Shown here in pieces: positions 1 through 6,984 of a DNA stretch of 6,984 bases. The stretch lies in NCBI GenBank assembly GCA_021833045.1, contig JAKBGP010000108.1, positions 1 through 6,984 on the forward strand, read 5' to 3'. The notes under the pieces were generated by a model. That model worked only from the letters and a program-made list of their open reading frames with translations, was not told the DNA's origin and did no database searches. The stretch is from Thermoplasmata archaeon. GTDB lineage: Archaea > Thermoplasmatota > Thermoplasmata > Thermoplasmatales > Thermoplasmataceae. The first letter of the stretch is position 1. Each line of letters starts with the position of its first letter. The position numbers and the translations under genes were made by a program.

Positions 1-54
1 AGAGGCCGTAGCATATCTCAGAATCGTATCACGGACTGATATCGAGTTTAATTT

Positions 55-624
55 TTAGCTTTTATCGCCTGGACTCCACTCGATCTCTATGTGCATCTCC
101 AATTTTTGATTTTCCTTAGCATAGACGAATTTGAATCTCAAAGGCTCCACGGGAGTGATTGTTACACGCTCTTCAGTCTTGAAAATAATTGATGTGTCGA
201 TTACTTCCTCCCTTAGAGCTGATCCAAGGTTTTCCATAATACTTGCTAGCTCATTCTTATTCACATCTAACCTATGCCTCACAATTGACTCGTGCATCTC
301 GCGGTAGTTTTCGAGCACTTCAGTCATTTTTGTCCAGTGAACCATAGAGCGCCTGAGCTCCTTGTTCCCTCTGTTGGTTAAGGCATAATGTTTACGGCCA
401 GGCAACTTATCTTTGAATTCCACGCGGCTTGTGACAAATCCGTCCTGCTCAAGTTTCTCGAGGGAAGGATATATCGTGCCAGTCTTTGGTCTCCAGAATC
501 CGGAGAACCTTTTTTCCAGTTCCTTTATCATTTCATATCCATACATTGGCCTTTCAGATAAGAGAAGGAGGAGCCAGAGTGATACCGTTCCAACTTTCAT
601 GCCCCGGGGGATGTTATTCGGCAT
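55..624 (-). CDS. PadR-family transcriptional regulator
   Basis: A 189-residue DNA-binding repressor of the PadR family. The N-terminal winged helix-turn-helix is clear: MYGYEMIKEL (27-36) is the usual second helix, GTIYPSLEKLEQDGFV (49-64) is the recognition helix and start of the wing, and GRKHYALTNRG (76-86) is the wing. The rest, about residues 95-189, is a helical and acidic C-terminal part that would serve dimerisation or ligand sensing. The ATG at 624 lies about 22 bases from the centre of the TATA box at 642-651, so the message is probably leaderless; the internal Met9 is a less likely start. The gene is divergent from the ChrB-like gene at 682 and shares its promoter, so it probably represses both directions. 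The ligand cannot be read from the sequence. Family assignment is firm; the target is inferred. Confidence 0.93.
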   Translation of the reverse strand: MPNNIPRGMKVGTVSLWLLLLLSERPMYGYEMIKELEKRFSGFWRPKTGTIYPSLEKLEQDGFVTSRVEFKDKLPGRKHYALTNRGNKELRRSMVHWTKMTEVLENYREMHESIVRHRLDVNKNELASIMENLGSALREEVIDTSIIFKTEERVTITPVEPLRFKFVYAKENQKLEMHIEIEWSPGDKS

Positions 625-641
625 GAACAGGTATGGAAATC

Positions 642-651
642 TTTATATAAA
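642..651. promoter_or_regulatory. Shared bidirectional TATA box of the padR / chrB-like pair
   Basis: TTTATATAAA is a perfect 10-bp palindrome and a good archaeal TATA box in both directions. On the minus strand its centre is about 22 bases from the padR start, which predicts a leaderless transcript. On the plus strand it predicts initiation near 670, just ahead of an AGGTGA ribosome-binding site at 670-675 and the ATG at 682. The inverted repeat AGTAG-GTGAA-CTACT (668-682) overlaps the expected plus-strand initiation region and is a candidate PadR operator. The operator assignment is inference. Confidence 0.65.
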
Positions 652-681
652 CACATTTACTACATAAGTAGGTGAACTACT

Positions 682-1149
682 ATGCGATGGGTTACTAGAG
701 AGAAGGCAAAGGTGGATAGGATTGCGTGCCCTTGGGTGATCTCCAGATTTGTCGATAAAGATGCTCAGTTCTTTTTTGTTCCGGCTCAAGAGGTGTTGGA
801 GTATGCGAAAAGGAATAACGCTACACCGTTCGACACGCCAGGCGCGGAATTGATGCATTATGAAGAAAAAGGTTACGAGTACGTGAGCTTTGATGCTATC
901 ATCAAGAAGTACGCTCTCAAAGACCCGGCACTGCTTGAACTGGCAAAGATTGTAAGATCTGCGGATGCGGAACCCCCAGATGCAAAGCCAGAGGGACCAG
1001 GTCTCGAAGCAGCAGCTCTCGGATTCAGAAGAATAGCAAAGGACGACCATGAGAACATGAAATTGCAATTTCCTTTGTATGATGCATTATATGCCTACTG
1101 TAAATGGAGATTAGAAGAAGGCGGAAAACTGGAGCACTCCGGCAACTGA
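682..1149 (+). CDS. ChrB C-terminal domain-type protein (chromate resistance family)
   Basis: A 155-residue protein matching the C-terminal domain of ChrB (chromate resistance exported protein family), here as a stand-alone protein. Recognisable segments in order are WVTRE (3-7), the conserved KVDRIACPWVISRFVD (10-25), PFDTPGAELMH (49-59), SFDAIIKKYAL (69-79), VRSAD (91-95), a GPGLEAAALGFRRIAKDDH stretch (105-123) and YDALYAYC (133-140). No signal peptide or membrane segment is seen, so it should be cytoplasmic despite the family name. ATG 682 is preceded by AGGTGA six bases upstream. Family members occur near chromate transporters or as metal-linked regulators, but no ChrA transporter is in this window, so a chromate role is not shown. 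It is followed by the beta-propeller gene with a short gap and is probably co-transcribed with it under control of the divergent PadR. Confidence 0.85.
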   Translation: MRWVTREKAKVDRIACPWVISRFVDKDAQFFFVPAQEVLEYAKRNNATPFDTPGAELMHYEEKGYEYVSFDAIIKKYALKDPALLELAKIVRSADAEPPDAKPEGPGLEAAALGFRRIAKDDHENMKLQFPLYDALYAYCKWRLEEGGKLEHSGN

Positions 1150-1181
1150 TCCTGCGTAATTCAAAGGAGCAAAATGTAGTA

Positions 1182-2117
1182 ATGGCGCTCAAGGAAGTTA
1201 AGCGTGTTTTCCTCCCTCATCACTTGGAAGGTGGAGAATTTGACCATGCTGCCGTGGACGAGATGTCCGATTTTTTGTACGTGGCCCACCCATCGAACGA
1301 TGCGGTGGACGTCATTGATCTAAGTGCTGAGAAATTTCTATACTCCATCACTGGGCATAAGGGAGTAGCTGGAGTTTGGGTTTCAGCGAAAAGAAGACTC
1401 CTATTTACTTCTAATAGAGGGGAGGATACTGCAAGTGTATTTCATCTGGATGGAAAAAAAGCCACAGAGAAATTTCGCGTCCCTACTGGGGTCAGGCCAA
1501 ATGGCATGGCGTTCGACGAAGGAAGAAACATCCTCATGGTTGCAGGTGTTGGTAATGCAGAAAAGAGCAATGCCCCACCATCTCTAACCTTCATCGACAC
1601 CAGCAGTGGGAAAGTAATGGGAAAGATCGAACTTCCGGGAAGGACTCGATGGGCACTTTATAATGCAGATACGGACTCATTCTTCGTGAACGTTGCTGAT
1701 CCGCCTTCAATAGTCTCTGTTAGGGCTGATAATCTTTCTAAGGTTTCCAGAACGTTCAACATCCCAGCTAGGGGACCACATGGACTCGAACAGAATAAGA
1801 AAAGCGGCACACTATATTGCGCTTGTGATGAGGGCATCTTAATCGGCCTTAACTTAGGAACCGGTGCAACAGAAGTTCTCGGGCTTCTGACAGGACCACC
1901 GGATGTAATCTGGCTGAACCGGAATTTGGATCGACTTTACGTTGCGGTGGGGGATCCTGGAGTAATAGATGTCTTTGATACAAATACTCTCCACTTTGTA
2001 GAGAAAATACAAACCGGTCCTGACGCACACACCCTTACCGTAGATCATCGTCGCGGAAATGTGCATGTCTTCTTGCCTGACGTTTGCCTGGATTTAATAC
2101 TGGCAGACAGAACCTAA
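1182..2117 (+). CDS. YncE-like beta-propeller protein
   Basis: A 311-residue protein built of about seven repeated beta-sheet units of the YncE/YVTN type. Typical blade motifs are FLYVAHPSNDAVDVIDL (31-47), LLFTSNRGEDTASVFHLD (73-90), RPNGMAFDEGRNILMVAG (105-122), SLTFIDTSSGKVMGKIEL (134-151), LYCACDEGILIGLNLGTG (211-228), RLYVAVGDPGVIDVFDT (251-267) and DAHTLTVDHRRGNVHVF (281-297). There is no signal peptide, unlike many bacterial relatives, so a cytoplasmic location is likely. The frame is open back to ATG 1104, which would overlap the upstream gene by 46 bases. ATG 1182 is preferred because it follows AAAGGAG at 1163-1169 and lies clear of the upstream stop. The family has no single known activity; binding of ligands or metals is possible. 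Operon with the ChrB-like gene is inferred from the 32-base gap. Confidence 0.82.
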   Translation: MALKEVKRVFLPHHLEGGEFDHAAVDEMSDFLYVAHPSNDAVDVIDLSAEKFLYSITGHKGVAGVWVSAKRRLLFTSNRGEDTASVFHLDGKKATEKFRVPTGVRPNGMAFDEGRNILMVAGVGNAEKSNAPPSLTFIDTSSGKVMGKIELPGRTRWALYNADTDSFFVNVADPPSIVSVRADNLSKVSRTFNIPARGPHGLEQNKKSGTLYCACDEGILIGLNLGTGATEVLGLLTGPPDVIWLNRNLDRLYVAVGDPGVIDVFDTNTLHFVEKIQTGPDAHTLTVDHRRGNVHVFLPDVCLDLILADRT

Positions 2118-2133
2118 CGAAGTGAAAGCACTG

Positions 2134-2138
2134 TTTTT
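2134..2138 (+). terminator. Possible T-run terminator after the chrB-like operon
   Basis: A TTTTT run 17 bases after the propeller stop codon could act as a short archaeal intrinsic terminator. It is brief and there is no supporting hairpin, so this is weak. Confidence 0.2.
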
Positions 2139-2187
2139 CCAGGAATATTTAATAGGCTGACGGTATGTTGCCCATGGTATTCCATTA

Positions 2188-2217
2188 ATGTTTTAAGCGA
2201 ATCCCGACCGGTCCATT
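2188..2217 (+). repeat. tRNA 3'-end-like direct repeat, copy A
   Basis: First of four direct repeats. AATCCCGACCGGTCCATTCT (2200-2219) is identical in copy B. Read as a tRNA 3' end, CGAAT fits the T-loop (R57 as G), CCCGA the 3' strand of the T-stem, CCGGTCC the 3' acceptor strand, and the next A the discriminator. It lies 6 bases beyond the vapC1 stop, on the 3' side of that gene. The upstream part is the most diverged of the set (GTTTTAAGC in place of CTTTAATCA). The tRNA reading is inference; no complete tRNA accompanies it. Confidence 0.8.
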
Positions 2218-2223
2218 CTAACC

Positions 2224-2601
2224 CTATTTGAACAACTTGAGATCATTGTCAATAAAAACTTCAAAATGTTTATCTAAGGTATAAAGTGAGCAGCCGTTAT
2301 TAATTGCTATTGACGCAACAATAGCGTCCATTCTTGGAACTGCCTTTCCTTTTCTTTCCGCGTTTAATTCTAAAAAGGCAGATAGTTCACTATCTTTTTT
2401 ACTGTATTCAAGTGCCGGTATCTGCAGGACTAAACGAGAATCCTTGGAGTATTTTTCTATACCGTAAAGCAACTCGTGCATGTTAACAGAACTTGTGCAG
2501 TATTCTTCCTCACTTTCGATAATTTTAAGCAGGAATACCTGACCTTTGTCTGAATTCTTATCCAGCACTTCGATGATTACATCCGTGTCCAGGAGAATCA
2601 A
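2224..2601 (-). CDS. vapC: VapC-type PIN-domain toxin (vapBC1)
   Basis: A PIN-domain endoribonuclease of about 125 residues, the toxin of a type II VapBC pair. With the start at TTG 2601 it begins MILLDTDVIIEVL. The metal-binding acidic residues are Asp5 (LLDTD), Glu43 (NMHELLYG), Asp92 (RMDAIVAS) and Asp110 (YTLDKHF), so it looks catalytically intact. The frame can be extended to GTG 2616 (130 residues). TTG 2601 is preferred for three reasons: GGTGGGAG at 2618-2611 gives it a ribosome-binding site about 9 bases away, it forms a TTGA four-base overlap with the vapB stop, and it gives the usual VapC N-terminus. Family members cleave RNA, often tRNA; the target here is unknown. Its 3' end abuts repeat A. 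Confidence 0.9.
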   Translation of the reverse strand: MILLDTDVIIEVLDKNSDKGQVFLLKIIESEEEYCTSSVNMHELLYGIEKYSKDSRLVLQIPALEYSKKDSELSAFLELNAERKGKAVPRMDAIVASIAINNGCSLYTLDKHFEVFIDNDLKLFK

Positions 2602-2810
2602 TTTCTTTTCTCCCACCGTTTCTTTTGTATGTCAATGAGGAGATCATTCTTGTTTTCAAATTCCATGCTTCCCCGTAGAGACAAAAGTAGATCCTTTCTG
2701 CTCTGTGATTTAATAAGTCTGTCCAGAAGTTCACTGAAACTTTCCTTTTCTTTCTTGAATCCCATTAGTTCATCATAAACTGATTTCTTAATGGTGATGG
2801 TTTTGAACAT
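2598..2810 (-). CDS. vapB: VapB antitoxin, DUF217 family (vapBC1)
   Basis: A 70-residue antitoxin of the archaeal VapB type (DUF217, PF02697-like). The N-terminal half FKTITIKKSVYDELMGFKK (2-20), followed by ESFSELLDRLI (23-33), forms a strand-helix-helix DNA-binding part. The charged C-terminal tail, about residues 48-70, should wrap around and block the PIN toxin. It is translated just before vapC1 with a four-base or longer overlap, so the two are translationally coupled. The start ATG at 2810 sits about 28 bases downstream of an AT-rich TATA-like element, giving a leaderless or very short leader. The pair is expected to repress its own promoter through the palindromes upstream. Confidence 0.9.
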   Translation of the reverse strand: MFKTITIKKSVYDELMGFKKEKESFSELLDRLIKSQSRKDLLLSLRGSMEFENKNDLLIDIQKKRWEKRN

Positions 2811-2841
2811 AACATATGTTTATGTTTAAACACTATTTATT
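2811..2841 (-). promoter_or_regulatory. vapBC1 promoter with two 10-bp palindromes
   Basis: Reading on the minus strand, ATAAATA at 2841-2835 is a plausible TATA box about 28 bases before vapB1. Between it and the start codon lie two perfect 10-bp palindromes, AACATATGTT (2811-2820) and TGTTTAAACA (2823-2832), two bases apart. This is a natural site for a VapB dimer pair that autoregulates the operon. Palindromes are seen directly; their function is inferred. Confidence 0.55.
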
Positions 2842-2897
2842 CCTTTATACATTCACGATAAAATAGCTTTATGGTTTCTGATCTTAAAAATTCGTTC

Positions 2898-2927
2898 AAA
2901 CTTTAATCAAATCCCGACCGGTCCATT
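2898..2927 (+). repeat. tRNA 3'-end-like direct repeat, copy B
   Basis: Second copy. It shares 24 consecutive bases with copy C (2898-2921 versus 5474-5497) and 20 with copy A (2910-2929 versus 2200-2219). tRNA reading: TCAAAT T-loop (2907-2912), CCCGA T-stem (2913-2917), CCGGTCC acceptor strand (2918-2924), A discriminator (2925). It separates the vapBC1 module from the MarR/SRPBCC module. Confidence 0.85.
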
Positions 2928-2931
2928 CTCC

Positions 2932-3143
2932 ATTTTAATGGATTTGTGAAGGAGTGCGGATACAACTCTTGCATACCTTATGTTTGAAGCTCTGTCAGCT
3001 GTGACTTTAGTTTCTTTGATGAGTGGATTTATTCCAATCTTATCTGACTTGATTGTGGACCGTATTGTGGACCATATTGTAAACCTCACATCCAAAATAA
3101 GAGCATAAGCGTTTACCCCATGGCTAATAGATGATTCCCTAAG
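2932..3143. other. Unassigned stretch with a 12-bp tandem repeat and a short plus-strand frame
   Basis: No confident gene. Three imperfect 12-bp units lie at 3051-3062, 3063-3074 and 3075-3086 (GATTGTGGACCG, TATTGTGGACCA, TATTGTAAACCT). The plus strand is open from 2950 to the stop at 3108 and reads as a hydrophobic segment followed by an amphipathic helix (VSLMSGFIPILSDLIVDRI). That resembles the C-terminus of a lost membrane protein, with only an internal ATG at 2980 and no ribosome-binding site. A 62-codon minus-strand frame (2907-3095) ends inside repeat B and has no recognisable domain. Either may be gene debris between insertions. Confidence 0.3.
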
Positions 3144-3602
3144 TCAGTTAGAAGAAATCAGTTTTCTAAGAGCTTCAGTGAATTCGATCATATCATTGCC
3201 CAATACAGCAAAAAAAGTGTTATCAGCATCCTCAACCACTCTTATGGCTTTGTCAATCAACTTTCTCCCTTTTTCTGTTGGGGATACTAAATGAGCTCTA
3301 GTGTCTTCCGAATTTCTTAACCGCAGAATTAGATCTTTTTCTTCAAGAGAACGCAGGACTGTTGATACCATCATTGCATCTGCATGTGCAAATCTAGAAA
3401 TCGCAACCTGTGTGGTTTCTCCACCATGATCGTTCAACCATACGGTGGAGGCTAAGAGCACAAACTGAACATGGGTTAGCCCTGAATCTTTTAGAGCTAC
3501 TCTCATTTTCCGTTGCCAGACATTCGTAGCCTGCCAGAGTATAAAACCAGGGCTATCCTGTGGTTTCTCAAATTTTGTAGGCATCTTATGTGGTGACGAC
3601 AT
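3144..3602 (-). CDS. MarR-family transcriptional regulator
   Basis: A 152-residue winged-helix regulator of the MarR family. An N-terminal dimerisation helix (18-40, LWQATNVWQRKMR) leads into GLTHVQFVLLASTVWL (41-56). The recognition helix is around MMVSTVLRSLEEKDLI (77-92), and the wing RNSEDTRAHLVSPTEKGRKL (96-115) carries the family's Asp-Arg pair. The C-terminal helices close the dimer. ATG 3602 is 12 bases after the SRPBCC stop and has GAGG at 3616-3613, so the two genes form an operon with the regulator second. It probably controls that operon in response to a small molecule, an inference from family behaviour. Confidence 0.92.
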   Translation of the reverse strand: MSSPHKMPTKFEKPQDSPGFILWQATNVWQRKMRVALKDSGLTHVQFVLLASTVWLNDHGGETTQVAISRFAHADAMMVSTVLRSLEEKDLILRLRNSEDTRAHLVSPTEKGRKLIDKAIRVVEDADNTFFAVLGNDMIEFTEALRKLISSN

Positions 3603-3614
3603 ACACTTTAAGCC

Positions 3615-4064
3615 TCATTTATCCTTACATATTTTTCCAATGAAATTAGCCATTCGAGCAATATTTTCCATTGTCTGCGGAACTCCAAGACTTATACCTT
3701 CTCCTATTTCTTTTTCTATTTCTTCTTTATCGGGACATAGGATTGTTACGTGATTGGTGAGTCGCGTCTTCCCATCTGGCAAATCAGAAAAGGTGTGGAT
3801 GAATTTTATCGTCGCATTCAACCCTTCAATAACAGTCTCATCAGAAAAACCTTTATTTGGGTCAGCCTGTGTAATTTTGTAAGTCAGAACCTCCTGTTCC
3901 TCCGGTTTGATTTTCCCGAAAGCCCCTTCCCTGAATTCTCCATGGAGAGATATTTCTTCAATTCCATGATCCCAAAGGGGCCAGGTTTCAACGTTACTGT
4001 AGAGAGCCCAAATATACTCTTTCCTTGCATCTGTTACTATGCTGTTCTCAAATTCCCAAGTCAT
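3615..4064 (-). CDS. SRPBCC-fold (polyketide cyclase/START-like) protein
   Basis: A 149-residue protein with the SRPBCC helix-grip fold. It begins with the typical first strand and short helix (FENSIVTDARKEYIWALYSNVETWPLWDHGIEEISLHG split over 5-42, with the Trp28-Pro-Leu-Trp31 signature). Beta strands follow, including the GEFREGAFGKIKP turn (42-54), KIKFIHTF-like strands (about 86-92) and RLTNHVTIL (101-109). It ends in the long C-terminal helix GVPQTMENIARMANFI (128-143). The fold makes a deep hydrophobic pocket that binds lipids or aromatic compounds; no catalytic role can be assigned. It is the first gene of a two-gene operon with a MarR regulator, which suggests a role in binding or detoxifying the effector that the regulator senses. 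Confidence 0.85.
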   Translation of the reverse strand: MTWEFENSIVTDARKEYIWALYSNVETWPLWDHGIEEISLHGEFREGAFGKIKPEEQEVLTYKITQADPNKGFSDETVIEGLNATIKFIHTFSDLPDGKTRLTNHVTILCPDKEEIEKEIGEGISLGVPQTMENIARMANFIGKICKDK

Positions 4065-4079
4065 CTTATCACTATGAAG

Positions 4080-4101
4080 ACATGATATGTGCGTATATAA
4101 T
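4080..4101 (-). promoter_or_regulatory. Promoter of the SRPBCC-marR operon
   Basis: On the minus strand ATTATATA at 4101-4094 is a TATA box about 33 bases before ATG 4064, predicting a leader of roughly 8 bases. Just downstream, ACAT-GAT-ATGT (4080-4090) is a perfect inverted repeat at about the position where MarR binding would block initiation. The operator role is inference. Confidence 0.5.
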
Positions 4102-4174
4102 AAGTGCGCTTACTTTCTGAATTCTGATTTTTGGCTTAGAAAAATATTCGGGCAAACCTTTCATGGAATAAATG

Positions 4175-4324
4175 CTAGCTCATTGTTTCGCCTTTTTCTG
4201 CATATCTTTAATTACACATATCAAGAAAATGATTCCATACAAATCTGCATGAGCCTATGTGTTTTTCAATGAGCACCTTCCGATCTTCATTGGGATAGAT
4301 TCTGAATTTGTAGGCCTTGAACAT
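4175..4324 (-). pseudogene. tnpB: Decayed 5' end of a tnpB (IS200/IS605 OrfB) gene
   Basis: The minus strand from ATG 4324 reads MFKAYKFRIYPNEDRK, then an EKHIGSCRFVWNHFLD segment. This is the characteristic N-terminus of TnpB/OrfB proteins of IS200/IS605 elements (the KAYKFRIYP and CRFVWN motifs). The frame is stopped by TAA at codon 39 (4210-4208). It continues recognisably as RYAEKGETMS to a TAG at 4177-4175, after which similarity fades. Only about 50 of roughly 400 codons remain, so the RNA-guided nuclease is gone. The upstream TATATAAAAG (4350-4341) would have been its leaderless promoter. The RuvC and zinc-finger regions are absent; the DNA beyond 4175 runs into the SRPBCC operon promoter. 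TnpB identity rests on the motifs alone but is quite distinctive. Confidence 0.8.
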
Positions 4325-4340
4325 GCTGTGTAAGTAATTG

Positions 4341-4350
4341 CTTTTATATA
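4341..4350 (-). promoter_or_regulatory. TATA box of the tnpB remnant
   Basis: TATATAAAAG on the minus strand lies about 22 bases from the remnant start codon. Read on the plus strand, CTTTTATATA is also a plausible TATA box. A hairpin AAAGC-ACTTC-GCTTT (4353-4367) follows, with no convincing coding frame downstream before vapB2. Confidence 0.45.
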
Positions 4351-4464
4351 CCAAAGCACTTCGCTTTCATCCCCTATCTTGTGAAAGGAGAATTCTCGCT
4401 TCTATGTGTTAAAAACACAATAGGAAACCATTATAATATAAGGGTAGGGGGTACCTGTGATGGT

Positions 4465-4487
4465 AAATAAATATATACCGGTATACC
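4465..4487 (+). promoter_or_regulatory. vapBC2 promoter with 12-bp palindromic operator
   Basis: AAATATATA around 4469-4477 is the TATA box, about 27 bases before ATG 4500, so the transcript should be leaderless. A perfect 12-bp palindrome TATACCGGTATA (4474-4485) overlaps the box's downstream edge. A dimeric ribbon-helix-helix antitoxin bound here would compete with TBP/TFB. Palindrome seen; function inferred. Confidence 0.6.
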
Positions 4488-4499
4488 ATTTAAATTTAT

Positions 4500-4760
4500 A
4501 TGAAAGTGAAAACGAGTATATCCATTGATAAACAGATCTGGATGGAACTCAAGAATCTCGCGTTACAAAGAGATGAGGACATAAGTTCTATCCTCAAAGA
4601 TGCGATCGAAAATGAGTTGTGTTTAAATTTAGACAAATACTTAATGAAATATTCCAAATCTGGCAAATCTTCTCTAGATTTTGAGCCGATTAAACCAAGT
4701 GGCAAAGTAACCGATTTGATAAGGAGCATGAGGGATGACCGAGAAAGTCGTATATCTTGA
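4500..4760 (+). CDS. vapB: VapB-type ribbon-helix-helix antitoxin (vapBC2)
   Basis: An 86-residue antitoxin. The N-terminus KVKTSISIDKQIWMELKNLA (2-21) is the beta-strand and first helix of a ribbon-helix-helix (CopG/Arc-like) fold, and DEDISSILKDAIENEL (26-41) is the second helix. The C-terminal half, including DFEPIKPSGKVTDLIRSMRDD (about 59-79), is the likely toxin-binding tail. It is unrelated in sequence to the DUF217 antitoxin of vapBC1. The gene overlaps vapC2 by 26 bases. ATG 4500 fits a leaderless message from the TATA box at about 4473. It is the only plus-strand toxin-antitoxin pair in the window. Confidence 0.82.
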   Translation: MKVKTSISIDKQIWMELKNLALQRDEDISSILKDAIENELCLNLDKYLMKYSKSGKSSLDFEPIKPSGKVTDLIRSMRDDRESRIS

Positions 4761-5190
4761 CAGTAGTGCAATAGTAAAAAAGTATGTTTATGAAATCGGC
4801 TCAGAATCTATTCGTGCAGAATACCACGAAGCCTATCTTGGAAACGTACTTCTTTCATTCAGCGTTTGGAATATTGGAGAGGTCATCGGAGTGTTTGATA
4901 GAGCATATAGGCAAAAAAGAATTGAGAAGGAACAGTTGGATGAAGTTATGACTAGATTCTCAAATGAGACTGCAGGGCTTAAGAAGATAAGCAGAATAAG
5001 GATAATCACCCTATCAGAGAGGATAATGGAAGCAAGCTGGGATGTTGTGATAAGGAATCATATCTATGTTGCTGATGCCCTACAAATTACAAGTGCTGTT
5101 GAAGTTGGATGTAAAGAGTTTTACACTGGAGATGAAAAGCTTCATAATTTAGCACTCTCGTCCGGCTTAAATTCTATTTATTTGGGATGA
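4735..5190 (+). CDS. vapC: VapC-type PIN-domain toxin (vapBC2)
   Basis: A 151-residue PIN-domain ribonuclease. The acidic centre is complete: Asp9 (YLDSSAIVKKY, the usual N-terminal signature), Glu49 (WNIGEVIG), Asp114 (YVADALQITSA) and Asp133 (YTGDEKL). The start ATG 4735 has AAGGAG at 4721-4726, 8 bases away, inside the end of vapB2. The toxin therefore depends on translation of the antitoxin gene and has its own ribosome-binding site. It is longer than the VapC1 toxin and has a different signature (DSSAIVKKY instead of LDTDVIIE), placing it in another VapC subgroup. RNA target unknown. Confidence 0.9.
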   Translation: MTEKVVYLDSSAIVKKYVYEIGSESIRAEYHEAYLGNVLLSFSVWNIGEVIGVFDRAYRQKRIEKEQLDEVMTRFSNETAGLKKISRIRIITLSERIMEASWDVVIRNHIYVADALQITSAVEVGCKEFYTGDEKLHNLALSSGLNSIYLG

Positions 5191-5473
5191 TCAGTAATGC
5201 CTCAAATGAAAAGCTGTAGATTAATTCGAGGGTATTTAACAGTACTCGCGTGACATCCTCCCCCAGCTGACGCAGGGAGCTTCCTATTTAAAACATTGGC
5301 TCTTTGGACTTTCATGTGGGTAACAATATCCAATTCTATTTTTGAGCGAGCTATGTGTGTCTTCCAGAATATATTTTTATCAGTGAAGTCGTTAATGTAT
5401 TGGAAAATCGGCTATTTCCATAACTTTTGTGTAGTTTCCTTAGAGATGACCCATACAAAAGTGTGATGAACCA
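5191..5473. other. Gene-free region with insertion-sequence debris
   Basis: No intact gene. It holds the IS end-like hairpin at 5250-5284 and an inverted repeat TGGAAA-N8-TTTCCA at 5401-5420. There is also a minus-strand open stretch of 69 codons (5411-5202) that lacks an N-terminal start codon and reads through the hairpin (NVLNRKLPASAGGGCH). It could be the decayed 3' end and right end of an IS200/IS605 element. Confidence 0.4.
5250..5284 (-). mobile_element. IS200/IS605-like right-end hairpin remnant
   Basis: The minus strand reads GGAAGCTCCC, then a GC-GTCA-GC inner hairpin, then GGGGGAGGATGTCAC. This arrangement (GGAAG, C-rich arm, loop, G-rich arm, GAGGATGTCAC) is what I recognise from the 3' ends of tnpB-bearing IS200/IS605-type elements, where it overlaps the guide RNA scaffold. 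The outer arms CTCCC and GGGAG (plus-strand 5258-5262 and 5275-5279) pair perfectly. By that orientation the element body would lie at higher coordinates, so it need not belong to the tnpB remnant at 4324. Recognition is from memory of the motif, so confidence is moderate. Confidence 0.5.
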
Positions 5474-5503
5474 AAACTTTAATCAAATCCCGACCGGACC
5501 ATT
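5474..5503 (+). repeat. tRNA 3'-end-like direct repeat, copy C
   Basis: Third copy, identical to copy B for 24 bases and with the same T-loop and T-stem reading. The acceptor-strand part is CCGGACC, one change from CCGGTCC. It ends 7 bases before the vapC3 stop codon, the same placement as copy A beside vapC1. Confidence 0.85.
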
Positions 5504-5510
5504 AATCAAA

Positions 5511-5918
5511 CTATATCTCAATAACCTGAATGCCAAGTTTTTTGCATTTATTATATAGTATTTTGTCAAAGGTGACTAAAGGTACTTTTCTCGAATATGC
5601 ATCATATGCTATTATCCAGTCATTGAAATCTCTAAAACTTAGCTTGTTTTCAACCATGAAGGTGGATACCTCCTCCATCATTTTTCCAGAAAGCCATGAA
5701 ACTGTGAAATATTCACTATGCAATAATTCCTCAATCTTAATTCGAACACTTTCATTATCTATTCCATACCTGGGAAGTACAAAACCAAGCTCGACAATTG
5801 ACAATGAGTTCACTATGGGGTCTTCCGACTTATCGATAAATTCACTTGCCCTGTCATGGCGTGGAGAATTCTCTATAGCATCATATACCAGAACATTGGT
5901 GTCGACAAGCACTGTCAT
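5511..5918 (-). CDS. vapC: VapC-type PIN-domain toxin (vapBC3)
   Basis: A 135-residue PIN-domain ribonuclease beginning MTVLVDTNVLVYDA. The acidic residues are Asp6 (VDTNVLVY), Glu43 (SIVELGF), Asp100 (DFNDWIIAYDA) and Asp118 (TFDKILY), so the active site looks complete. The frame is open to an ATG at 5936. ATG 5918 is preferred because GGGAGGAG lies about 8 bases upstream, and it forms an ATGA four-base overlap with the vapB3 stop, the classic coupled arrangement. The DTNVLVYDA signature and the FNDWIIA motif set it apart from the other two toxins here. Its 3' end is 7 bases from repeat C. Confidence 0.92.
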   Translation of the reverse strand: MTVLVDTNVLVYDAIENSPRHDRASEFIDKSEDPIVNSLSIVELGFVLPRYGIDNESVRIKIEELLHSEYFTVSWLSGKMMEEVSTFMVENKLSFRDFNDWIIAYDAYSRKVPLVTFDKILYNKCKKLGIQVIEI

Positions 5919-6151
5919 TTGCTGCTCTCCTCCCATCCCGCCCTTATCTCATTGTCGGCATCCATTGATGAAAGATTCTTTTTTGCCTTGAAGGTTATTC
6001 GCCCTCTGCGTTTCCCTGTAGAGTTTATCCTGTTCCTGAGGCGTTGGTTAATGATCTTCGACATATTCTTTGTGCTACCATACTTTTCTATGGATTCTTT
6101 GACGATTTCAGCGTAGATTTCTTCGTCCAGGTTGATAGTGGTTTTGACCAT
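5915..6151 (-). CDS. vapB: Ribbon-helix-helix antitoxin (vapBC3)
   Basis: A 78-residue antitoxin starting MVKTTINLDEEIYAEIVKES, the strand and first helix of a ribbon-helix-helix domain. STKNMSKIINQRLRNRI follows as the second helix (about 31-47), then a basic linker and the acidic tail MDADNEIRAGWEESSK that should contact the toxin. The frame extends to ATG 6220, but ATG 6151 is chosen: it begins the conserved domain and lies about 24 bases after TTTATATGG, giving a leaderless message. The stop overlaps the vapC3 start as ATGA. Confidence 0.85.
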   Translation of the reverse strand: MVKTTINLDEEIYAEIVKESIEKYGSTKNMSKIINQRLRNRINSTGKRRGRITFKAKKNLSSMDADNEIRAGWEESSK

Positions 6152-6152
6152 G

Positions 6153-6181
6153 AATGTTAATGCAAATACCATATAAACATT
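6153..6181 (-). promoter_or_regulatory. vapBC3 promoter
   Basis: On the minus strand TTTATATGG, centred near 6175, is the TATA box. AATGTT (6153-6158) and AACATT (6176-6181) form an inverted pair flanking the initiation region, a possible antitoxin-binding arrangement. The half-sites are short, so this is tentative. Confidence 0.5.
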
Positions 6182-6275
6182 TAACGGTAAACTGTCATGA
6201 CTACAGTTCAAACAATCCACTTCACAAATGCACTATATTGTTCGTCTGAAAATCATATTTCAGGGTATTCGTTTA

Positions 6276-6305
6276 AAATTTTAATCAAGTCCCGACAGTT
6301 CCATA
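6276..6305 (+). repeat. tRNA 3'-end-like direct repeat, copy D (degenerate)
   Basis: Fourth and most diverged copy in its 3' half: AATTTTAATCAAGTCCCGAC followed by AGTTCCAT. TTTAATCAA and CCCGA are kept. The T-loop variant TCAAGT still fits tRNA consensus (variable position 59), while the acceptor strand has drifted to CAGTTCC. It lies 18 bases beyond the stop of the HxlR-type gene and bounds the vapBC3 module on the right. Confidence 0.7.
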
Positions 6306-6323
6306 CCCAATCATGTTCAGAAC

Positions 6324-6638
6324 TCAATCCGTTGAGGTTTTTTCTACCATATGCAGCAATGGCAACAAACTCTCTCTGACATTATGGCCAAATCCGGAGA
6401 GTGTGTAAGTAACACCTTCTGCTCCTTTATGCCTCTGGATCAACTGGAAATTCTGAGGCTCCTTCAGCCTCTTGGAGATTATCCTTGAACTTGAATAATG
6501 AATATCTTTGAGTATCTCATTAAAATTCTTCCCGTTACCTCTGTTCCCTATAACGCCCAGCACGATCATTGTGTATTTCTTTCCAATCAGGTTAAGAGGA
6601 GGAGAATCAATACAAACGGTAAAATCACGGCCTTCAAT
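6324..6638 (-). pseudogene. HxlR-type winged-helix regulator with disrupted 5' end
   Basis: The segment reads VCIDSPPLNLIGKKYTMIVL, then GVIGNRGNGKNFNEILKDI, SSSRIISKRLKE (recognition helix), LIQRHKGAEGVTYTLSGFGH (wing) and a closing LLPLLHMVEK helix. This is a full HxlR-type DNA-binding domain of about 100 residues. The only ATG (6569) would cut the first helix in half. The frame continues upstream for 23 codons without ATG, GTG or TTG to a TAG at 6641-6639, and beyond that is open again for 24 codons to a TGA. The simplest reading is a gene whose start has been lost through a nonsense mutation. A truncated 81-residue product from 6569 cannot be excluded. It is divergent from the metal-binding gene at 6777 and may once have controlled it. 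Confidence 0.6.
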
Positions 6639-6730
6639 CTAGCAGGCCTTGCTTTTATTTTCAAGTCCACTCAGGTCATTGTTTCTTGCTGAAGCCAATA
6701 TAACCAAGGAACTTCATGCAATCAGGTAAA

Positions 6731-6757
6731 AAAAAGTTTACTTTTTAGCTTTAATAC
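6731..6757 (+). promoter_or_regulatory. Promoter and inverted repeat before the HMA-domain gene
   Basis: TTTAATAC at 6750-6757 is a TATA-like box centred about 24 bases before ATG 6777, predicting a leaderless message. Just upstream is a perfect inverted repeat AAAAAGT-TT-ACTTTTT (6731-6746), where it could overlap the TFB recognition element. It is a candidate operator for a metal-responsive regulator; function inferred. Confidence 0.5.
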
Positions 6758-6776
6758 TTTTCTGCGATTAGATGAT

Positions 6777-6984
6777 ATGACTGATAAGAAAGTAACAATG
6801 AGAGTTTTTGGCATGACTTGCGATGACTGCGTAAGAACGGTAAGTGATGGACTGAAAAAGGAGGGTGCAGAGGTGTTATCCATATCATTAAATGATGGGA
6901 TGGCAATTGTAAAGATAGATGATGCTAAAATTTCAGCAGAGAAACTTGTTAAAGCCCCTGTCTTTGGAGAAAAATCTCATTACA
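6777..6984 (+). CDS. N-terminal heavy-metal-associated domain of a larger protein (partial)
   Basis: The gene runs off the right edge after 69 codons. Residues 5-60 form a heavy-metal-associated (HMA) domain with the metal-binding motif GMTCDDC (12-18), so two cysteines (15 and 18) would bind a soft metal such as Hg(II) or Cu(I). The next residues, APVFGEKSHY (60-69), continue past the domain and do not look like a chaperone end. This makes an N-terminal HMA domain fused to something larger likely. A mercuric reductase (MerA) with an HMA leader is my first guess, and a copper-transporting P-type ATPase is the main alternative. The visible part cannot decide between them. ATG 6777 fits a leaderless message from the TATA box at about 6753. 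Confidence 0.75.
   Translation, partial: MTDKKVTMRVFGMTCDDCVRTVSDGLKKEGAEVLSISLNDGMAIVKIDDAKISAEKLVKAPVFGEKSHY

Follow-up and report, generated by a model that had tools for sequence, protein, structure and literature searches.

A tRNA-Ala-anchored, integron-like array of toxin-antitoxin-rich cassettes in Thermoplasmata, probably moved in trans by a tyrosine integrase

Introduction

The ssrA islands of Dehalococcoides are, in the available part of their description, tandem elements inserted in the T-loop of a tRNA-like gene, and a 20-bp repeat of its 3' end marks their boundaries; a conserved 15-bp motif lies just upstream of the repeats and all the islands are found less than 100 kb downstream of the gene (PMC3146451). 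Integrons, archaeal ones included, are described in the accessible part of PMC9668308 as having attC sites that are folded. In Cuniculiplasma the vapBC genes cluster mostly in islands, according to part of PMC5155288. Here we describe an array of repeat-bounded units, several of which hold a toxin-antitoxin module, in a stretch of 6,984 nucleotides from a Thermoplasmata archaeon (GCA_021833045.1, contig JAKBGP010000108.1); this whole stretch is called the window. We consider it likely that the window is part of a tRNA-Ala-anchored, integron-like array of non-autonomous cassettes, which were probably moved in trans by the tyrosine integrase of a larger element. Stretches, genomes and nucleotide families of units are cited by L, G and F numbers respectively.

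Results

Repeats of the window and their identity

A repeat search of the window identified a direct repeat of 39 nt in four copies, starting at 2185, 2895, 5471 and 6273, and the spacings of 710, 2576 and 802 bp given in an earlier note on this DNA were borne out. The core AATCCCGACCGGTCCATT occurs three times in the window with no more than 3 mismatches, where 0.01 occurrences are expected and none of 200 shuffles reaches three. The fourth copy has 4 mismatches to the core and was picked up by the repeat search and by a 43-nt profile, which was built from 69 sites with shuffled and reversed controls that gave nothing above 0 bits at building. On the window this profile recovers exactly these four sites at 43-52 bits, the next-best scores being -6.7 on the plus strand and 8.2 on the minus strand, where the match is the near-palindrome of copy 1. 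Across 1.43 Mb (114 stretches including the window) 227 sites exceed 10 bits with this profile; the reversed control contains none. The array continues past the window: the closest contig (L001, from the metagenome-assembled genome Thermoplasmata archaeon LSA5.bin89, 98.0% identity across the whole window) contains 10 sites in 22 kb, of which one is weak (13 bits).

The last 21 nt of the repeat on the plus strand (TCAAATCCCGACCGGTCCATT) were observed to resemble a tRNA 3' end, with a T-loop, T-stem, acceptor strand and discriminator plus TT. No tRNA gene was found within the window, and the tRNA-Ala was not reached in its own contig; the identity of the repeat was seen in related stretches. 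For example, in L010 an intact tRNA-Ala(TGC) ends with the core found past a toxin gene of the 5511-5936 type, and in L004 an intact tRNA-Ala(CGC) adjoins a homologue of the first VapBC of the window (both by ARAGORN), and in L136 an 802 unit of the window type (F0) lies directly behind an intact tRNA-Ala. Among relatives of the 5511-5936 toxin, the core (no more than 3 mismatches) is found just past the toxin stop in 11 of 17 loci, two of which (L012 and L013) are near-identical. At the non-tRNA sites the sequence upstream of the 21 nt is a conserved arm of about 22 nt (consensus GTATTCGCTTAAAACTTTAA) instead of the tRNA. Judged from these sequences, the repeat marks the tRNA-Ala 3' end as a single site of integration.

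We noticed two further features of the sites. Site 1 is nearly palindromic at window positions 2177-2204 (GGTATTCCATTAATGTTTTAAGCGAATCC), and in a 28-mer of the consensus site 10 of the 14 pairs are palindromic, a value that 31 of 5000 shuffles reach; only one unit end bears the arm. This 28-mer recalls a dif-type site, the dif site of Xer being 28 bp in an 11-6-11 layout. In addition, a second type of tRNA-Ala repeat, with a longer tRNA 3' part that begins at the anticodon arm, was observed at L096:1-77, L102:1205-1299, L124:13880 and L157:8132 (both on the minus strand) and in L161 and L163, preceded in three cases by GATGCCGGAGGCAA. It suggests another integrase that would cut the same tRNA at the anticodon side.

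Orientation, position and spread of the sites

Adjacent sites of at least 20 bits within 10 kb of each other are on the same strand in 121 of 123 pairs. On stretches with a tRNA-Ala that is intact by ARAGORN, all 45 sites of this strength lie downstream of it and on its strand; another 22 tRNA-Ala genes have no site of at least 20 bits in the stretch examined. Six genomes have strict sites on a chromosome-sized contig (G065, G084, G105, G107, G061 and G082), and there 26 of 27 strict sites are located less than 55 kb downstream of tRNA-Ala on its strand (p about 7e-39, assuming a 3% background). A divergent pair about 560 bp apart at L085:8318-8876 is the one case among the 123 pairs where the site strand switches within 1 kb.

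In a sample of one genome per species, mostly metagenome-assembled, strict sites are present in 49 of 117 genomes of the order and in 46 of 400 genomes drawn from the class, three of which (G146, G182 and G237) are outside the 117. No strict site was found in Ferroplasma acidarmanus Fer1 (G017).

Unit families, order and breakpoints

A total of 148 units were found between consecutive sites. For the 145 that lie outside the window the median length is 1532 bp, and 34 of them measure 690-830 bp. With limits of our own choosing (60% mutual coverage for families, 20 bits for unit sites and 6 kb for unit size), 75 of the 138 units of up to 6 kb group into 20 nucleotide families. Several families keep their length while their order and neighbours vary. 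As an example, F0, to which the 802 unit of the window belongs, is represented by 12 copies, of which one is 877 bp long and the other eleven 801-807 bp, and nine different neighbours occur among the ten outside copies with a known right neighbour; F2 has seven copies of 1944-1965 bp and F5 four of 721-723 bp. The chromate-type unit F11 stands ahead of the toxin cassettes in L048, which is the window order, and behind F0 in L070.

In most families the sequence identity breaks at the sites. In ten families of at least three members, the mean pairwise identity outside the units is 47-62%, against 51% for random pairs, while inside the units it reaches 68-90% in F0, F1, F2 and F5 and is weaker in smaller families, with 55-77% in F3, F4, F7 and F8; L061, near-identical to L067 and maybe of one source with it, was excluded from these values. 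The unit-by-unit comparison that the earlier note had proposed was run between species: units are reordered as blocks and the breakpoints fall at the repeats. The likening of the locus in that note to a gene-cassette array is supported, since whole repeat-bounded units recur in different orders and neighbourhoods and identity just outside them is at the random level. That reading went without the identity of the site, the integrase-bearing element, the non-toxin cargo and the spread across the order.

Sharing between species

Cassette identity was higher than rpoB identity in 99 of 116 cross-genome pairs, which are not independent of each other; the rpoB comparator covers 29 genomes (G001, with a split gene, was left out) and 38 of 154 long-match cross-genome pairs without a comparator were dropped. 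Without G012 and the G107/G006 pair the count is 85 of 102. Distant species share single cassettes. Between G105 and G090 the F8 cassette together with the 21-nt core shows 91% identity, with rpoB at 71%, and this cassette is located behind tRNA-Ala in G105 and behind an arm in G090. Similar values were observed for F5 in G065 and G003 (93%; rpoB 72%), F13 in G102 and G002 (91%; rpoB 71%) and F16 in G065 and G007 (93%; rpoB 74%), and these three matches start in the shared left site and stop within 2 nt of the end of the right core. Many of the lower-identity cassette pairs are compatible with vertical descent.

The integrase-bearing element

No integrase gene was found among the open reading frames scanned in the three units of the window; it is borne by a large element instead. 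In L051 a 429-aa protein starts 47 bp past the tRNA-Ala core, and this element of 16.3 kb has a terminal site of the same kind at 63 bits. The same integrase start was observed in at least 10 further stretches, one of which (L075) has a broken copy, and it follows tRNA-Ala at about 50 bp in G105, in G107 and, with two copies each, in G065 and G084. On contig C3 of G009 a strict site is found at 15,244-15,282, with the tRNA end at 10-28. The tRNA side of the element bears an inverted arm (TTAATCTATTAATCGAATAC).

The L051 copy has no Pfam match at 0.01 and no PDB sequence match; it matches NCBIfam XerA_Arch at 2.6e-10 (40 bits, cut-off 220) and a PHROG integrase at 3e-7. Many homologues of the 429-aa protein bear a precomputed PF00589 and are named site-specific integrase in Cuniculiplasma, Acidiplasma and Ferroplasma, Cuniculiplasma divulgatum and Acidiplasma cupricumulans among the species. 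Homologues at 1e-20 were found in 58 of the 117 genomes, namely 33 of the 49 that have strict sites and 25 of the 68 that lack them (p=0.0014). Strict sites are present in 18 of the 25 genomes whose match reaches 78% identity or more (p=0.0011). Remoter homologues (about 38-62% identity) were also seen at other places in the 117 genomes, such as G065:C1:865301 and 1397575, which are distant from tRNA-Ala, and these may use other target sites.

Cargo of the units

The cassette sites flank many kinds of unit with genes in both orientations. The cargo includes several PIN families, ParE-like and Fic/TPR units and AbrB-like/PIN units, where 'AbrB-like' is our own reading as Pfam gave nothing. Larger units carry a type IIG-like restriction-methylase with an SNF2 helicase, DNA methylases, an ABC transporter and a pyridine-nucleotide oxidoreductase that appears mercuric-reductase-like by its position after HMA. 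On the six chromosomes, 12 of the 40 PIN genes over the cut-off are in arrays that make up about 97.6 of 11,575 kb (about 0.84%; p=6e-16), membership and span being counted by hand from the site coordinates. Toxin-antitoxin genes were found in 94 of 135 units and in 1 of 675 control windows, a biased test because the reference proteins came from the units and the control DNA includes rpoB stretches.

One conserved two-gene cassette, F2, encodes proteins of about 346 and 248 aa in 1944-1965 bp and is found in 7 copies, for example at L154:11808-13772 and L091:6734-8677. The longer protein has only a weak winged-helix match and the other has no Pfam match, and neither PADLOC nor NCBIfam gave a match for them. 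F2 is a candidate for a new toxin-antitoxin or defence pair.

Units and genes of the window

The features of the window are listed in Table 1. As the earlier note had claimed, a single vapBC on the minus strand is present in each of the 710 and 802 units, by their PIN and VAPB_antitox Pfam matches with the 802 antitoxin lacking a Pfam match, and its distances from toxin stop to left repeat hold at 6 nt in the former and 7 nt in the latter. In both units the PIN toxin gene overlaps a small upstream antitoxin gene, the antitoxin of cassette 3 (78 aa, 5915-6151, no Pfam match) being assigned by position and co-conservation only. The two pairs are predicted type II toxin-antitoxin modules.

Table 1. 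Sites, units and predicted genes of the window (positions in the 6,984-nt stretch)
Feature	Position	Strand	Details
Cassette-end site 1	2175-2217	+	arm-like part 2175-2196, tRNA-Ala 3'-end core 2197-2217; score 52.4; core 19/21 nt like tRNA-Ala-type core; repeat family D1
Cassette-end site 2	2885-2927	+	core 2907-2927, 21/21 nt; score 51.3
Cassette-end site 3	5461-5503	+	core 5483-5503, 20/21 nt; score 43.4
Cassette-end site 4	6263-6305	+	arm 18/20 nt, core 17/21 nt; score 43.5
Preceding unit, right part (family F11)	1-2217	+	PadR regulator 55-624 -, ChrB_C protein 682-1149 +, beta-propeller 1182-2117 +; left site outside window
Cassette 1 (family F1), 710 bp	2218-2927	+	predicted VapBC, genes on minus strand; 8 further F1 copies, 709-799 bp, outside window
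VapC toxin, PIN domain (predicted)	2224-2616	-	Pfam PF01850 3.6e-11; NCBIfam VapC 4.7e-11, below cut-off; stop 6 nt from site 1
VapB antitoxin (predicted)	2598-2810	-	Pfam PF02697 (VAPB_antitox) 5.3e-14
Cassette 2 (family F12), 2576 bp, compound	2928-5503	+	MarR + SRPBCC-like + TnpB fragment + plus-strand RHH/PIN module
MarR-family regulator	3144-3602	-	PF01047 4.5e-9
SRPBCC / polyketide-cyclase-like protein	3615-4064	-	PF10604 5.2e-4, below cut-off
IS605-type TnpB N-terminal fragment, 48 aa	4208-4354	-	PF12323 1e-14
RHH-type antitoxin (predicted)	4500-4760	+	weak RHH_4 match 0.015; homologue in L079 1.9e-4
PIN-domain toxin (predicted)	4735-5190	+	PF01850 1.4e-6
Cassette 3 (family F0), 802 bp	5504-6305	+	predicted VapBC on minus strand; 11 further F0 copies, 801-877 bp, outside window
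VapC toxin, PIN domain (predicted)	5511-5936	-	PF01850 3.4e-13; 140 homologues; stop 7 nt from site 3
Predicted cognate antitoxin, 78 aa	5915-6151	-	open reading frame overlaps vapC; kept with vapC in family F0 (clusters 2 and 3)
Following unit, left part	6306-6984	+	HxlR-like 6324-6569 -, HMA metal-binding 6777-> +

The compound unit of 2576 bp probably arose by loss of an internal site, because in G007 and G065 the RHH/PIN module stands on its own as a cassette of 952-954 bp (F16). The best candidate for a decayed internal site, at 4142-4184, scores -6.7 bits, which is within the control range, and it is not claimed. The TnpB debris at 4208-4354 inside this unit may have wiped out an internal site. 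The F11 unit (PadR, ChrB_C and beta-propeller; window 1-2217 and L070:7086-9405) is itself a cassette with 94% identity between G001 and G002, and its placement relative to the toxin cassettes differs.

Other origins of the repeats and of the locus were also considered. The spacings, irregular and of 0.7 kb or more, do not fit clustered regularly interspaced short palindromic repeats (CRISPR), and the repeat has no Rfam match at the gathering score. A plasmid or phage origin was rejected as no similar DNA was found in PLSDB (near mode) or in INPHARED (distant mode, 2100-6400), and IMG/VR contained no exact site core and no close relative of the VapC or the integrase.

Discussion

Mechanism proposed for the array

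A cassette would be a small non-autonomous segment, often one toxin-antitoxin operon and sometimes defence or metal genes, whose right end is the 43-nt site, composed of an element-specific arm of about 22 nt and the last 21 nt of tRNA-Ala. As a circular intermediate it would recombine, through its 21 tRNA-derived nt, with the 3' terminus of tRNA-Ala or with a further array site, mainly with the tRNA end, and the crossover is expected inside the 21 shared nt. Insertion would restore the tRNA and displace older cassettes downstream; with the tRNA kept whole and the older cassettes pushed away from it, the sites would all follow one another head to tail on the strand of the tRNA. The most probable recombinase is the 429-aa tyrosine integrase encoded by the element of about 16 kb; this element sits in the same tRNA-Ala with the same end site, and its integrase would act in trans. 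Toxin-antitoxin cassettes would be retained by addiction.

Several observations weigh against movement of the cassettes by this route. Within the species of the window the sole comparison available, with the near-identical contig L001, gave the same unit order and no unit difference. One strict site (G061:C1:1348237) lies away from tRNA-Ala and 2 of the 123 pairs are discordant, while the cassette is less similar than rpoB in 17 of the 116 pairs. The very high identity of G012/G013 and of G107/G006 extends beyond one cassette, as does that on the left side of F18, so that misbinning or larger transfers are possible and these cases were not relied on. F6 and F9 have an inside identity of 47-63% with little or no contrast between inside and outside (3 pairs each, of unequal lengths, for which the equal-distance bins may be out of register). 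As for the integrase, 16 of the 49 strict-site genomes have no match at 1e-20 and 25 of the 68 siteless genomes have one, and 7 of the 25 genomes with a match of at least 78% have no strict site. Furthermore, no clear left-end arm is shared by the cassettes of 94 independent non-integrase families (no more than 0.14 bit per column in the first 30; columns 41-120 have a mean of 0.02 and a maximum of 0.10 bit), and arm-like matches at the left ends, 8 of 94 with about 3 expected, are only slightly in excess. The inverted arm is thus on the integrase element and not on the cassettes, which may therefore be poor substrates.

Alternative explanations

That full-size elements entered tRNA-Ala repeatedly and decayed by deletion, leaving immobile remnants in which toxin-antitoxin genes survive by addiction, is in our view unlikely. 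Such scars of tandem integration would agree with the full-size integrase element having the same end site, with cassettes that lack its left arm, with units that are large (10 of 148 above 6 kb) or compound, and with the tandem islands known at a tRNA-like gene in Dehalococcoides, as given in the available part of PMC3146451. However, independent decay would not yield equal unit length in many species, as seen in F0, F2 and F5, and single small site-bounded units common to distant species are not expected from it.

Homologous recombination between the repeats of about 43 bp, or within the toxin genes, without a site-specific recombinase is very improbable. The repeats are direct and similar and exchange between them could delete or duplicate units inside an array, but 21-43 bp of homology is generally short for homologous exchange, F8 is shared without left-side homology beyond the 21-nt core, and the siting behind tRNA-Ala is strict. 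The earlier note had offered tandem integration at one site or recombination between repeats; the first, with the tRNA-Ala 3' end as the one site, fits better, and the second fits less well, being possible for internal reshuffling.

A bona fide archaeal integron with IntI, attC and attI has hardly any chance of being correct: its tandem cassettes with one site each and one orientation (121 of 123 neighbour pairs concordant) are matched here, but the sites fold no better than shuffles (DNA z-scores of -0.46 to 1.88 for the four window sites on the plus strand and two on the minus strand), the site core is a tRNA 3' end, and the XerA match of the integrase is weak at 40 bits against a cut-off of 220 by the models run, none of which is IntI-specific. 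We give just as little credence to a regulatory or RNA element (a terminator or tRNA fragment gene) with an incidental layout, which would suit a tRNA-derived sequence that in some cassettes follows the toxin genes at their 3' end, as there is no Rfam match or stable fold, the sites adjoin varied units with genes in either orientation, and the break of identity at the sites and the shuffling data contradict it.

Significance of the array

For archaea of the order to which Ferroplasma belongs, we lean with modest confidence towards integron-like capture without IntI or attC, in which tRNA-Ala would be the capture site, the resident integrase would act in trans on one-armed sites, toxin-antitoxin cassettes would be abundant because they stabilise the array, and metal-resistance and defence cassettes would be exchanged between distant species. 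Capture of single-operon cassettes at one tRNA-derived site would offer a concrete mechanism for the clustering of toxin-antitoxin and defence genes in islands and for their crossing between archaeal species. The hosts inhabit places such as acid mine drainage, and the array that has the toxin cassettes also contains genes of chromate and mercury type. The formation and movement of cassettes that have no recombinase, a question common to integrons and dif modules, becomes testable here. In several families the toxin stops lie a few bases from the site, which raises the question of how a cassette is born.

Comparison with known systems

Among titles and abstract openings, with few subscription journals covered, we found no description of such a system. 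The available part of PMC12302457 gave no match to 'tRNA-Ala', although a spelling with superscript would have been missed.

The nearest described layout is that of the ssrA islands of Dehalococcoides, which in the accessible part of their description share with the present array the tandem arrangement, the 3'-end repeat, the upstream motif and the position downstream of the gene. Those islands are bacterial, use a serine recombinase (CcrB-like) and a transfer-messenger RNA gene, and their cargo includes reductive dehalogenases (the same part of PMC3146451). In contrast, the array described here is archaeal, with a tRNA-Ala, a tyrosine recombinase and toxin-antitoxin-rich units down to 0.7-0.8 kb. 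The dif modules of Acinetobacter include toxin-antitoxin pairs. They are also a close parallel, being modules bounded by Xer/dif sites of a tyrosine recombinase encoded elsewhere and found mainly on plasmids, as far as the available part of PMC6449649 describes them, whereas each unit here has one asymmetric site, half of which is a tRNA gene end, in one orientation at a chromosomal tRNA.

Integrons resemble the array in having cassettes with one site each and one insertion platform beside the gene of a tyrosine recombinase, in the accessible part of PMC9668308; the present sites differ in having no attC-like fold and a tRNA 3'-end core, and the integrase is weakly XerA-like by the models run. 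The integrative elements of archaeal tRNA genes also have a tyrosine integrase and a tRNA 3'-end attachment site, and the tRNA stays whole here too, but in the available part of PMC4158269 they are single, large and equipped with their own integrase, whereas here many integrase-free mini-units carry the end site of the element. We therefore rate the array as a new variant of tandem integration at a tRNA site, which is functionally integron-like and is not an integron.

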